DNA of 64,000 nucleotides. Source: an uncultured Cetobacterium sp. GTDB lineage: Bacteria > Fusobacteriota > Fusobacteriia > Fusobacteriales > Fusobacteriaceae. The stretch is taken from contig NZ_CAMTIK010000002.1 in NCBI RefSeq assembly GCF_947072685.1, forward strand, positions 1 to 64,000. Reading direction: 5' to 3'. The notes under the pieces were generated by a model that searched no databases, was not told the origin of the DNA, and worked only from the letters and a program-made list of their open reading frames with translations. Shown here piece by piece: positions 3,650 to 44,477 of this stretch. The position numbers and the translations under genes were made by a program. The first letter of the stretch is position 1, and every line of letters starts with the position of its first letter.

Positions 3650-3679
3650 AGTAAAAACCTCCGGTGAAATATAGTAAAA

Positions 3680-3711
3680 TAAAAAAGCCATCCAGAAAAA
3701 TCTAGATGGCT
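3680..3711 (-). terminator. Intrinsic terminator of the his-type attenuator
   Basis: On the minus strand AGCCATCTAGA (3711-3701) pairs with TCTGGATGGCT (3696-3686), an 11-bp stem with one G-U pair and a 4-nt loop, followed at once by a T-run (3685-3680). It lies between the leader peptide and the binding-protein gene, so it must be read through for the operon to be expressed. Confidence 0.9.
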
Positions 3712-3816
3712 ACAAAAAGAAAATCATATTTTCGTTGTCATCATAGATACAGACTCAAGTTTTAAAAAAACAACAAGAGTCTGCGTCTATGAAAAATTCA
3801 TAAAAAACAAACTCTA

Positions 3817-3867
3817 CTATCTATGATGATGATGCAGTGAATTTAAAACAACACTTAATTTAAACAT
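3817..3867 (-). CDS. Histidine leader peptide MFKLSVVLNSLHHHHR
   Basis: A 16-residue ORF with its own ribosome site (GGAGGA, 3877-3872) and ATG at 3867. Four consecutive CAT codons (3834-3823) lie just before AGA and the TAG stop. Length, His run near the stop, strong translation start, upstream promoter and downstream terminator match the architecture of amino-acid leader peptides such as the enterobacterial his leader. The product is expected to have no function beyond ribosome positioning. Confidence 0.88.
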   Translation of the reverse strand: MFKLSVVLNSLHHHHR

Positions 3868-3895
3868 GATTTCCTCCAATTTTTATTTTTTTATA

Positions 3896-3924
3896 ATGAT
3901 ATACCTATTTTATAAGTAAGTCAA
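3896..3924 (-). promoter_or_regulatory. Sigma-70-type promoter of the his-type transport operon
   Basis: On the minus strand TTGACT (3924-3919), a 17-nt spacer and TATCAT (3901-3896) precede the leader ribosome site by about 20 nt. Confidence 0.75.
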
Positions 3925-4952: not shown

Positions 4953-5000
4953 ATAAAAAAAGCCGGTTACATCTCTCGAATTGAGTTGATGTAACTGGCT
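4953..5000 (-). terminator. Terminator of the c-di-GMP riboswitch
   Basis: On the minus strand AGCCAGTTACATC (5000-4988) pairs with GATGTAACCGGCT (4973-4961), 13 bp with one mismatch or wobble, followed by a T-run. The 5' arm is also the 3' end of the aptamer, so ligand-bound aptamer and terminator compete. Confidence 0.88.
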
Positions 5001-5056
5001 GTCATTTTAAAGACCCTATAGCTTTGCGTCATAAAGTTTCCTTTATTTTGCCGTCT
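4988..5056 (-). promoter_or_regulatory. Cyclic di-GMP-I (GEMM-I) riboswitch aptamer
   Basis: Read on the minus strand the element contains GACGGCAAA, a stem capped by a GAAA tetraloop (ATAAAG-GAAA-CTTTAT), then GACGCAAAGC, AGGGTC and ATGACAGCCAGTT in this order. These are the conserved blocks of GEMM-I aptamers (GGCAAA, GNRA loop, ACGCAAAGC, AGGG and AGCCAGU). Outer helix P1 is weak by eye. Because the terminator 5' arm overlaps the AGCCAGTT block, binding of c-di-GMP would be expected to prevent termination (ON switch); this direction is inference. Confidence 0.88.
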
Positions 5057-5066
5057 GTTTTATTAA

Positions 5067-5095: not shown

Positions 5096-5213
5096 GAGAG
5101 AATTTAAGATATTATAGTGAGATTTAACATTTAAAATATATATCTATAAAAAAAACAAAGTATTGAAAAAATATATTTTTAGTGTTAATATAATATATTA
5201 TGTATTAATTAAG

Positions 5214-5350
5214 AAGTTTTAATATGGAAATATGGTTGAATTCCATTACGGCCCCGCCACTGTAAAATTGATGAAAGCACAAAAAATCACTGAGGAAACT
5301 TGGGAAGAGGTGTGAGTAGGATGAGATGAGTCAGGATACTTTTAAAACTT
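5214..5350 (+). promoter_or_regulatory. Cobalamin (B12) riboswitch
   Basis: Conserved blocks appear in order: GGTTGAATTCCATTACG, GCCCCGCCACTGTAAA (family core ...CCGCCACTGT), GGGAAG, and the B12-box-like GATGAGTCAGGATAC. The ends AAGTTTTAA (5214-5222) and TTAAAACTT (5342-5350) form a perfect 9-bp closing helix P1. No intrinsic terminator lies between the aptamer and the receptor gene, so regulation is probably translational, closing the GAGGGAGG ribosome site at 5357-5364 when cobalamin binds. Confidence 0.95.
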
Positions 5351-5368
5351 AACTTCGAGGGAGGAAAA

Positions 5369-40631: not shown

Positions 40632-40660
40632 TTGACAATAGAATTTTCATATGTTAGTAT
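40632..40660 (+). promoter_or_regulatory. Promoter of the methionine transport operon
   Basis: TTGACA (40632-40637), 17-nt spacer, TAGTAT (40655-40660); a TATAAT overlaps 3 nt further on. The start point would be near 40668, some 20 nt before the leader ATG. Confidence 0.8.
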
Positions 40661-40690
40661 AATGAAAAATAATTTATAGGAGTGGTTACG

Positions 40691-40765
40691 ATGAAAAACA
40701 ATTTAATATCAAAAACTACAATGATGAATATGATGATGCCTATGGGAGTTGGGACCAAAAATTAA
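40691..40765 (+). CDS. Methionine leader peptide (Met-run)
   Basis: A 24-residue ORF behind AGGAG (40678-40682). After ten codons comes the run MMNMMMPM, six Met in eight codons (40721-40744), then seven codons to the TAA at 40763. Met codons are rare by chance in short ORFs (one triplet), so this density is striking. With promoter, ribosome site and downstream terminator it fits a leader peptide reporting methionyl-tRNA charging for the metNIQ operon. Confidence 0.88.
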   Translation: MKNNLISKTTMMNMMMPMGVGTKN

Positions 40766-40837
40766 TTTTTAATTTTGGGACGAACTCATTTTCAATTTTC
40801 TAAATGAGAAAGCTCCCAAGGAATAAGTTGTTATTAT

Positions 40838-40872
40838 AAAGCTTGGGATTTTAAATCTCAAGCTTTTTTTTA
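40838..40872 (+). terminator. Terminator of the methionine attenuator
   Basis: AAAGCTTGGGA (40838-40848) pairs with TCTCAAGCTTT (40856-40866) with one G-U, followed by a run of T (40864-40871). It lies 26 nt before metN. Confidence 0.9.
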
Positions 40873-40897
40873 TTAATTTTTTATTAGGAGGGGTATG

Positions 40898-41932
40898 ATG
40901 ATAGAGCTTAAAAATATTGGTAAAACTTATGAAAATAAGGGGCAAAACATTGAGGCATTAAAGGAGATGTCATTTAAGTTTAAAAAAGGTGAAATTACAG
41001 GAATAATTGGTTATTCTGGTGCAGGTAAGAGCACGTTACTAAGATGTATAAATCTTTTAGAAATACCAAGTTCAGGTGAAGTTATAATTGATGGGATAAA
41101 TTTAAATACCTTAGATGCTAAGAAGTTAAGAGAAACCAGAAAAAAAATTGGAATGATATTTCAACATTTTAATCTTATGAAAAGTAGAAGTGTCTCAAAA
41201 AATATAGCTTACCCTTTAAAAGGGAGCGGATTTTCTAAGAAGGATATAGATGAGAGGGTGGATGAGCTTTTAGATTTAGTGGGATTAAAAGATAAAAAAA
41301 ATAGCTATCCATCTCAATTGAGTGGAGGTCAAAAGCAAAGAGTGGCTATCGCAAGAGCATTGGCCAACAGACCAAATTTGATTTTGTGTGATGAGGCAAC
41401 TTCAGCTTTAGATCCAGAGACAACTGAATCAATTTTAAAACTTTTAAAAAAAATCAACAACGATTTAGGAGTAACAATAATATTGATAACCCATCAAATG
41501 GAAGTTATAAAAGAAATTTGTGATAGTGTTATTGTTATGGAAGATGGGTGTGTGAAGGAAGAGGGGGAAGTGGTAGAAATATTTTCAAGACCCAAAACTC
41601 CAATAACAAAGAGGTTTTTATCGTCTATTTTTAATAATGATAAAAGTCAGAGTTATTTAGAAAATATAGATCTTAAAAAAAATCAAAAGATAGTACAGTT
41701 ATCATATGTGGGAAATAATACTGAAGAAGCGTATATCTCTAGAATTTCAAGAGATTATGAGGTAGATGCTAGCATTTTATTTGGAAATATACAAATTATA
41801 AAGGAGACTCCAATTGGAAATATGGTAGTAAAATTAGGAGGAGCTGAAAGTAGTATTTTAGGTTCAATAGATTATTTGAATGATAATAAAATTTATACGG
41901 AGGTTTTAAAAGATGGTAGAAAAACTGTATAA
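40898..41932 (+). CDS. metN: Methionine ABC transporter ATPase
   Basis: A 344-residue ATPase with Walker A GYSGAGKST, Q-loop QHFNLM, signature LSGGQKQR, Walker B LILCDEATSALDP and H-loop THQMEV. The 75-residue C-terminal NIL/ACT-like domain (VVKLGGAESSILGSIDYLNDNKI) is the MetN regulatory domain that binds methionine and inhibits transport. Of the ATGATG pair the second (40898) is better spaced from AGGAGGGG. First structural gene of the operon, behind the Met leader; overlaps metI by 20 nt. Confidence 0.96.
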   Translation: MIELKNIGKTYENKGQNIEALKEMSFKFKKGEITGIIGYSGAGKSTLLRCINLLEIPSSGEVIIDGINLNTLDAKKLRETRKKIGMIFQHFNLMKSRSVSKNIAYPLKGSGFSKKDIDERVDELLDLVGLKDKKNSYPSQLSGGQKQRVAIARALANRPNLILCDEATSALDPETTESILKLLKKINNDLGVTIILITHQMEVIKEICDSVIVMEDGCVKEEGEVVEIFSRPKTPITKRFLSSIFNNDKSQSYLENIDLKKNQKIVQLSYVGNNTEEAYISRISRDYEVDASILFGNIQIIKETPIGNMVVKLGGAESSILGSIDYLNDNKIYTEVLKDGRKTV

Positions 41933-42593
41933 CTCTTTAGAAAATGTAATTAAATATCAAGATGAAATGGTTTATGCCTTTGGAGAAACTATTGTGATGG
42001 TTACTGTAGCAGGGATAGTTTCAACATTAATAGGGGCAGTTATGGGAGTAGTTTTAGTAATAACCAAAAAAGATGGAATTTTAGAAAATACGTTAGTTAA
42101 TAATATTTTGGGTAAATTTATAAATATTTTTAGATCCATTCCATTTGTAATTTTATTGGCAGCTTTAATTCCAGTAACAAGATTTTTTATGGGAACAACA
42201 ATTGGATTAAAAGGAGCGATTGTTCCATTGATATTTGGTTCAACGCCATTTGTTGCAAGACAGATTGAATCTGCATTATTAGGCGTAGATTCGGGTGTTA
42301 TTGAAGCAGCCTATGCAATGGGGTCATCACCACTTGAAATAATTTATAGAGTGTTATTGAGGGAGGCGTTGCCAGAGATTGTGTATGCTCTTGTCATAAC
42401 TACAGTTAGTTTAATCGGATTTTCAGCAGTAGCTGGAACAGTTGGTGGAGGAGGATTAGGAGATTTTGCTATAAGGTATGGGTATCAACATTTTAAAACA
42501 GATATTATGGTAGTTACAATCATAATTTTAGTAGTGTTAATAACACTTATACAATGGTCAGGAGAGAGAATATTAAAAAAAATAAAACACTGA
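41913..42593 (+). CDS. metI: Methionine ABC transporter permease
   Basis: A 226-residue inner-membrane protein with five or six membrane segments. ETIVMVTVAGIVSTLIGAVMGVVLV, NIFRSIPFVILLAALIPVTRFFMGT and the EAA loop GVIEAAYAMGSSPLEIIYRVLLREALPEI are typical of MetI. The ATG at 41913 has GGAGG inside the metN coding region 8 nt before, so the two are translationally coupled. Confidence 0.95.
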   Translation: MVEKLYNSLENVIKYQDEMVYAFGETIVMVTVAGIVSTLIGAVMGVVLVITKKDGILENTLVNNILGKFINIFRSIPFVILLAALIPVTRFFMGTTIGLKGAIVPLIFGSTPFVARQIESALLGVDSGVIEAAYAMGSSPLEIIYRVLLREALPEIVYALVITTVSLIGFSAVAGTVGGGGLGDFAIRYGYQHFKTDIMVVTIIILVVLITLIQWSGERILKKIKH

Positions 42594-42614: not shown

Positions 42615-43448
42615 ATGAAAATATTAAAAGTCTTAAAGGTTGTTATATTTTTAGTTTTAACAATTGGAGGATTTTCAGGATGTGATAAATCTTCAGAAAA
42701 TTATACGGAATTAAATAAGAAAAAGATAATAAAAATAGGATTAAATGGAGATGAAAATATAATTTGGGAAAATGTAAAAAATCAGCTTGCAAAAGAAAAT
42801 ATAGAACTAAAGTTTATAAATTTTAGTGATTATATTCGGCCAAATTTAGCTTTACAAGATAAAGAAATAGACATCAATTCATTTCAGACCGAAATATATT
42901 TTGATAGCTTTAAAAGTGAACATAAGTTGTCAATAATAAATTTAGGATATACAGTTTTAGCTCCAATGGGAGTTTATTCTAAAAAAATATTGAATCTATC
43001 TCAATTGAAAGATAACGCAACAATAGCTATTCCAAATGATAGTTCAAATGGTGGAAGAGCATTGCTTTTACTTCAAGATGCGGGACTTATAACTATAAAT
43101 AAAGAAGCTGGTAATTTTCCAAGAATTAAAGATATTGTAGAAAATAATAAACATTTAAAGATAGTGGAGTTAGTTGCAACTCAAATTCCGAGATCGTTGG
43201 AGGATGTAGATATTGCAGTTATAAATAATGGGGTTGCTGTTGAAGTGGGATATTCACCTCTTGAAGACTCTATATTCATTGAAAATTTTGAAAATGAGAG
43301 ATTGAAACCATATTTTAATATAATAGCTTCAAGAGAAGATAACCAAAATAGCCCTGAAATAAAAAGAGTTTTAGAGATATATCAAACTTCTGAAAATAAA
43401 AAAATTATAGATGAATATTATAAAGGATCATCGGTAGCTGTATTTTAG
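42615..43448 (+). CDS. metQ: Methionine-binding lipoprotein
   Basis: A 277-residue lipoprotein of the NlpA/MetQ family. Lipobox GFSGC with Cys near residue 23, then IKIGLNGDENIIWENVKNQL, DYIRPNLALQDKEIDINSFQTEIYFDSF and the conserved TIAIPNDSSNGGRALLLLQDAGLI, with LVATQIPRSLEDVDIAVINNGVA. It captures D/L-methionine for MetNI. RBS GAGGGGG before the ATG at 42615. Confidence 0.94.
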   Translation: MKILKVLKVVIFLVLTIGGFSGCDKSSENYTELNKKKIIKIGLNGDENIIWENVKNQLAKENIELKFINFSDYIRPNLALQDKEIDINSFQTEIYFDSFKSEHKLSIINLGYTVLAPMGVYSKKILNLSQLKDNATIAIPNDSSNGGRALLLLQDAGLITINKEAGNFPRIKDIVENNKHLKIVELVATQIPRSLEDVDIAVINNGVAVEVGYSPLEDSIFIENFENERLKPYFNIIASREDNQNSPEIKRVLEIYQTSENKKIIDEYYKGSSVAVF

Positions 43449-43517: not shown

Positions 43518-44477
43518 ATGAAGAATATCCAAGAAATATATTTGGCAGGTGGGTGCTTCTGGGGTGTAGAGGCTTATATGCAAAGAATTAACGGTGTAAT
43601 CGAAACGGTTTCAGGATATGCAAACGGGAAAATAGAAAATCCAACATATGAAGATGTTATTTATAGAAATAGTGGCCATGCTGAAACTGTTCGTGTGGTA
43701 TATGATGTTAATATAGTTAACTTGCAAACACTTCTAAAATATTATTTTAGAATTATAGATCCAATTAGTTTAAATAAGCAAGGGAACGATAGAGGGACTC
43801 AATATAGAACAGGGATATATTATACAAAAGAGGCGGATAGAAAAATTATTGAAAAAGAGATTGAAGAGCTTCAAAAAAATTATTCAGATAAAATTATGGT
43901 TGAAGTGATACCTTTGATTCGATTTGATATAGCAGAGGAGTATCATCAGGACTATTTAAAGAAAAATCCTCAAGGTTATTGTCATATAGATTTATCAAAA
44001 GCGGATGAAGTAATGATCGATGAGAATAAATACTTTCGATTGACAGAAGAAGAGCTGAGATCTAAATTGACTGATAAACAGTATAAAGTAACTCAATTAG
44101 GAGATACCGAAAGAGCTTTTAACAATGAATACTGGGATTTTTTTAAACCAGGAATATATGTTGATATAACAACGGGAGAGCCACTGTTTTCATCTGATGA
44201 TAAATTTAACTCTCAATGTGGATGGCCTAGCTTTATAAAAACAATCATACCGGAGGTTGTTACTTATAATAAAGACAATAGTTTTAATATGGAAAGAGTT
44301 GAAGTTGTGAGCAGGATTGGGAAAGCTCATTTAGGTCATGTTTTTAATGATGGACCAAAGGAGCTAGGTGGTTTAAGATATTGTATAAATAGTGCTGCGA
44401 TTGAATTTATTTCTTTAGATGAGATGAAGATAAAAGGATACGAATATTTAATTCGAACGATTAAAAAAGGTAAATAA
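43518..44477 (+). CDS. MsrA-MsrB fusion, methionine sulfoxide reductase
   Basis: A 319-residue fusion. MsrA part: [10 protein letters not shown] with catalytic Cys13, [33 protein letters not shown]. MsrB part from about residue 170: [45 protein letters not shown] and [11 protein letters not shown] with the catalytic Cys. No signal peptide, so cytoplasmic. It lies 69 nt after metQ with no terminator between, so it is probably in the methionine attenuator regulon: uptake together with repair of methionine. Confidence 0.95.

Follow-up and report, generated by a model that had tools for sequence, protein, structure and literature searches.

The methionine leader and the operon behind it

The window, meaning the whole 64,000-nucleotide stretch of DNA analysed here, carries on its forward strand the genes metN (methionine ABC transporter ATPase, 40895-41932), metI (permease, 41913-42593), metQ (substrate-binding lipoprotein, 42615-43448) and msrAB (methionine sulfoxide reductase fusion, 43518-44477). 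MsrAB scored above the cut-offs of NCBIfam models TIGR00401 and TIGR00357. The top matches for MetN and MetQ (TIGR02314 and TIGR00363, respectively) fell below the model cut-offs, so the identity of these two genes rests on top match and gene order. The metI assignment was made from its ORF and operon position.

Ahead of metN, the putatively regulated gene, a consensus scan found a sigma-70-like promoter (TTGACA-17-TAGTAT with an extended -10, 40632-40660, forward strand, 10/12 matches), which is kept in relatives. It is followed on the same strand by a Shine-Dalgarno sequence, AGGAG (40678-40682), whose GGAG is invariant across 17 leaders, and by an ORF of 24 codons (40691-40765, ATG to TAA) encoding MKNNLISKTTMMNMMMPMGVGTKN. 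Codons 11-18 read ATG ATG AAT ATG ATG ATG CCT ATG (40721-40744), i.e. six ATG in eight codons; this run, the putative control codons, is kept in relatives. With a start, Shine-Dalgarno sequence, stop and cognate-codon run upstream of a cognate gene, the ORF meets the criterion for an attenuator leader. Short ORFs with at least five Met in eight codons were found in 0 of 40 simulated 64-kb windows (first-order Markov); the real window holds a single such ORF, with six. Within the leader (40681-40720), GTGGTT after the Shine-Dalgarno sequence pairs over 6 bp with AACTAC in codons 8-10; this pairing is conserved, with a change from G-U to A-U in three genomes, and might affect initiation of leader translation.

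Between the leader ORF and metN lies an intrinsic terminator (40838-40871, 13 pairs at 40838-40866, then a T-tract), conserved in related leaders; shuffled sequences gave 0.0 terminators. The RNA leading up to it can be divided into segments with several possible partners. Segment 1' (CCTATGGGAG, 40739-40748; RNAalifold and hand alignment) is able to pair with segment 3. Segment 1 (GAGTT...CCAAAAATTAA, 40746-40768) holds the stop codon and pairs with segment 2 (TTAATTTTGGGACGAACTCATTT, 40769-40791), which can pair with segment 3 instead. Segment 3 (AAATGAGAAAGCTCCCAAGG, 40802-40821) has 1', 2 and 4 as alternative partners, and the core of segment 4 (CTTGGGA, 40842-40848) forms an antiterminator with segment 3 or the terminator with segment 5. 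The competing pairings are thus 1:2, 2:3, 3:4 (antiterminator) and 4:5 (terminator), plus a fifth, 1':3 (CCTATGGGAG with CTCCCAAGG), which takes up the sequence straight after the Met run and is present in the ribosome-free consensus fold. The folding z-score was -3.3 for 40665-40895 and -3.8 for 40752-40880, with none of 200 shuffles equally stable.

No Rfam family reached its gathering score at the leader locus; under lax thresholds the top match was PyrR, with 29.5 bits against a cut-off of 54. Covariance models of the SAM-I riboswitch (RF00162) and the T-box (RF00230) had no match at the metN leader locus.

These results bear on a first-pass annotation made from sequence alone, which had described a 24-residue ORF with six Met in eight codons, five segments and a terminator before metN, and no visible SAM riboswitch or T-box. 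The leader ORF with its promoter, Shine-Dalgarno sequence, Met run and downstream terminator is real and the ORF is as described. All five segments exist, with the pairings 1:2, 2:3, 3:4 and 4:5; 1':3 had not been listed. The absence of SAM riboswitch and T-box holds at the locus, but a SAM-I riboswitch does occur elsewhere in the genome, before metK.

Conservation of the leader and its target genes

Among the genomes of the named collection, a MetN search found none closely related to the window; conservation was assessed on other genomes. Nine members of the genus, among them the genome of the window itself, encode a MetN 78-100% identical to the window's, and a Met leader lies upstream of each of these nine metN genes. 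A tenth genome, G005, has a Met leader near a contig end, so that Met leaders are present in 10/12 genomes of the genus. The Met run was retained in 17 leaders, with one Met codon fewer by in-frame loss in three genomes (G004, G005 and G008), and the peptide KTTMMNMMP(M/L)GVxTKN is almost invariant across the genus. Paralogous leaders (MFNKTIKTTMMNMMPLGVCTKN and similar) precede metY-metF-metA-hom-metH, an aspartate kinase ORF (only 240 aa) and a gene for an SBP_bac_5 peptide-binding protein; metF, metA and metH were identified by reading translations, without a family search. DNA matches on contigs C19 and C4 of the window's own genome proved to be ordinary terminators.

A covariance model built from 13 leader copies was used to search 98 genomes of the phylum and gave matches in 16 of them, belonging to two genera only. 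The placement in Fusobacteriota and Fusobacteriaceae is inferred from the first-pass annotation and from gene content. In the second genus (g14), leaders were found at E values of 4e-5 to 7e-4. They are strongly diverged (example peptides are MRNFEFRQLNMMMMLWKGL and MVNSRIGQLNMLMMMLW), and most retain three or four consecutive Met codons; the start of copy L162 reads with interrupted Met codons. The genes behind the g14 leaders are metNIQ, methionyl-tRNA synthetase (MetRS; TIGR00398, above cut-off), metY, and homoserine dehydrogenase (hom) followed by metY. The MetRS frame seems interrupted in G058 (362 + 168 aa), and in G053 it is open up to the end of the stretch examined. Where a leader peptide or a T-box controls an aminoacyl-tRNA synthetase gene, the response is to tRNA charging, which makes MetRS the most telling target. 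Extra weak matches of the covariance model near 39.5 kb in the window corresponded to a terminator only.

It had been stated beforehand that non-conservation of the Met codons in related genomes would refute the attenuator. This did not occur: the run is found before Met-related genes in both genera, in 17 leaders of the first and in the divergent leaders of g14. Conservation and the set of target genes are observed facts. The covariation check suggested at the same time gave a thinner result. Most leader positions are invariant within the genus and only two terminator pairs are double-changed, which limits formal covariation. Helices 2:3, 3:4 and 4:5 are nevertheless preserved by double changes between the metN and metY types, between the two genera and within g14. 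In helix 2:3, GG/CC is replaced by AA/TT and, within g14, CTCAT/ATGAG by CTCGT/ACGAG (A-T to G-C); helix 3:4 occurs as TCCCAAG/CTTGGGA, TCTCCC/GGGAGA, TCTGCCA/TGGTAGA and TTTGCCA/TGGCAAA. These compensatory changes are present in the sequences and come mainly from the two-genus comparison and from within g14. The alignment was made by hand and so is biased towards the model; with this reservation, the mutually exclusive antiterminator 3:4 appears to be maintained in relatives by differing sequences.

We compared these positions with those of SAM-I riboswitches, which were found in 83/98 genomes of the phylum. In most other genera examined, SAM-I lies directly upstream of metN. The closest MetN relatives outside the genus (71% identical, in G017 and G019) have SAM-I before metN, and so does a second metN paralogue inside the genus (about 50% identical). 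The window's genome has one SAM-I only, the one upstream of metK. At E 0.001 and with stricter filters, none of the 12 genus members gave a T-box match. In two g8 genomes, pairs of adjacent tandem T-box-like matches below the Rfam cut-off were seen (G041:C2:81267-81781 and G042:C4:351595-352111). The window also contains divergent c-di-GMP-I (4987-5062, reverse strand) and cobalamin (5192-5357, forward strand) riboswitches, about 130 bases apart.

Ribosome position and the proposed mechanism

To relate the competing pairings to translation, transcripts ending in the terminator loop were folded with a ribosome footprint at every codon. A generic measure of arm pairing was too noisy and missed the SBP leader, and helix-specific probabilities were used for the Met leaders instead. 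For the set of 17 genus leaders, placing the last two Met codons in the A site gave a P(3:4) of 0.98-0.99. Once the A site had moved to the codons after the Met run, P(3:4) was 0.12 and 2:3 had a probability of 0.88. This contrast was stable for footprints from +11 to +14. A ribosome placed on the stop codon gave P(3:4) values from 0.44 to 0.97, depending on the assumed footprint, and the ribosome-free state was mixed (0.61 antiterminator, 0.39 1':3). The idea that an untranslated leader always reads through was dropped on finding 1':3 and this mixed state. The footprint dependence and the mixed state leave open the outcome when Met shortage also cuts leader initiation.

In g14, P(3:4) peaked at the Met codons at 0.95-0.96 in the MetRS leader of G053 (falling to ~0 afterwards) and at 0.54 in that of G058. 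The metY leader peaked at 0.78, and the hom leader gave 0.84 at the Met codons and was also high, reaching 0.85, upstream of the run. One metN leader (L147) reached only 0.22 at the Met codons, and another (L149) formed no antiterminator at any stall position; selection of the antiterminator by Met codons is thus weak or absent in 2/6 g14 leaders. The leader is energetically consistent with control by ribosome position. That a ribosome on the cognate codons selects the antiterminator in the genus leaders is a prediction of the model, made in silico only, at equilibrium and on truncated transcripts.

We propose that the leader is a ribosome-mediated transcription attenuator sensing the charging of methionyl-tRNA. 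We regard this as very likely (probability roughly 0.88), in the absence of experimental data. When Met is ample, the ribosome would clear the Met codons and rest on the codons that follow, blocking 1:2; segment 2 would then capture segment 3, the 4:5 terminator would form and transcription would end ahead of metN. A shortage of charged tRNA-Met would make the ribosome stall on the Met run, covering 1' but leaving segment 1 free, so that 1:2 would form, the 3:4 antiterminator would follow and metNIQ-msrAB would be transcribed. Leader translation, stalling, termination and read-through in vivo, and the response to tRNA-Met charging as the signal are all inferred.

Three other explanations were considered. 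The first is an arrest-peptide sensor, in which the nascent peptide binds Met or SAM and stalls in a ligand-dependent manner (TnaC-like) rather than through uncharged tRNA. In its favour, conservation of KTTMMNMMP(M/L)GVxTKN in the genus reaches beyond the Met codons. However, the g14 peptides have essentially nothing in common with it except the Met run, and the invariant C-terminal part doubles as segment 1 RNA. A ligand-induced stall with the given wiring would activate uptake genes at high Met, and a MetRS target suits charging, not ligand excess. We therefore think this explanation very unlikely.

The second is an unrecognised metabolite riboswitch or protein-bound leader, in which the short ORF is incidental and the signal would be Met, SAM or homocysteine. 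The leader RNA is highly conserved with alternative folds, and neighbouring genera have SAM-I at metN, both of which would fit. Against it, Rfam gives no match at cut-off, and conservation covers the Shine-Dalgarno sequence, start codon, reading frame and Met run, in contrast to the diverging loops and g14 sequences. The Met run was not produced by chance in the Markov simulations, and leaders of similar architecture exist whose runs are of Asn or Tyr codons (see below). This possibility, too, is very unlikely. An ordinary constitutive or leaky terminator beside a chance Met-rich ORF, conceivable in an AT-rich genome with many short ORFs, is all but excluded by the 0/40 simulated windows and already contradicted by conservation in two genera before Met-related genes.

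Other codon-run leaders and known systems

A second model, applied without a systematic survey, picked up further leaders whose runs are of other codons. In several g5 genomes, Asn-run leaders with competing hairpins (L167, L168, L172 and L174; peptide example MKGHIIFLSDLINNNNNNMLGFGLK) precede asnA (TIGR00669, above cut-off). These are probably Asn attenuators; to our knowledge, no Asn attenuator before asnA has been described. Five consecutive Tyr codons were found in leaders before an AGCS-family amino-acid carrier (L169 in G010, g1; L173 in G012, g2), which raises the possibility of a Tyr-sensing attenuator and of a tyrosine-transport role for the carrier. Upstream of a sodium:solute symporter gene, L125 and L126 carry a short ORF that contains several Pro codons (MRKDQVISNNVNRQPIPP...), and their promoter region resembles that of the Met leader. 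Weak R2 matches without a codon-run ORF (e.g. L170, L171 and L175-L177) were terminators or chance.

The first-pass annotation had suggested a general regulatory style in this lineage, with a histidine leader at 3.8 kb sharing the logic of the Met leader. The general claim gains support from the similar Asn- and Tyr-run architecture in the family. For the His leader (MFKLSVVLNSLHHHHR, 3660-3900, reverse strand) the same layout of 1:2, 2:3, 3:4 and 4:5 is seen by eye, but an equilibrium test using the generic, noisy arm-pairing measure gave no support at the His codons. In its 1':3 pairing the His codons themselves take part. A bolder reading is that one modular attenuator architecture (1'/1, 2, 3, 4, 5) serves the family with exchanged control codons (Met, Asn, Tyr, His, perhaps Pro), putting whole amino-acid regulons under tRNA-charging control in the role held elsewhere by T-boxes and SAM riboswitches, and that the Met version is a true Met-tRNA regulon including MetRS. 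At present this could as well prove wrong as right.

Bacterial Met control is normally ascribed to SAM riboswitches, T-boxes and DNA-binding repressors. If the proposal is correct, a Met leader regulon that includes MetRS, where neighbours carry SAM-I, amounts to an exchange of sensors, from one for SAM to one for Met-tRNA. It would also offer a natural example of a cell that assigns Met sensing and SAM sensing to different operons. Methionine would be an unusual attenuation signal since it is also the initiator amino acid. The mechanism class is already known, while the Met regulon appears to be new; this novelty is provisional, as subscription literature was largely outside our search.

Within that limit, the literature yielded nothing on attenuation by a Met leader in these bacteria, and the proposal would extend classical attenuation to a phylum for which we found no prior report. 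According to Naville and Gautheret (2010), Proteobacteria and Actinobacteria were, as far as they knew, the only groups with demonstrated leader-peptide systems until their own Firmicutes case (PMC2965389). An actinobacterial survey reported no conserved RNA structure before methionine operons (PMC1262725), and a 26-genome search including one fusobacterial genome gave uORF candidates, with no mention of methionine in its text (PMC8632094). The earlier remark that no established Met leader attenuator was known is nearly right. The only Met precedent we found, a weak prediction, is metL of Streptomyces lividans, a proposed Met leader peptide before metNIQ; it has 29 aa with two internal Met, is leaderless, and its termination was described as 'unclear', without a typical Rho-independent terminator (PMC8079986). 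The window's leader, by contrast, has six clustered Met codons and a strong terminator and is conserved across genera and Met genes.

The SAM-I riboswitch also controls metN and other Met genes via transcription termination, but it binds SAM directly, and the Met leader locus has no SAM-I match. In lactobacilli, Met genes are controlled by a T-box that responds to tRNA charging. This Met T-box shares with our proposal tRNA-charging sensing at Met genes, but needs no leader ORF. A further resemblance, in architecture and with no sequence relation claimed, is to the classical attenuators of the proteobacterial trp, his, leu, thr and phe operons, which combine a short ORF carrying a cognate-codon run, competing hairpins and an intrinsic terminator with a cognate biosynthesis, transport or aminoacyl-tRNA synthetase gene downstream. 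The Met leader differs from them in its Met specificity and in having the stop codon inside segment 1 with the control codons just upstream, so that stalling would permit 1:2 and block 1':3.
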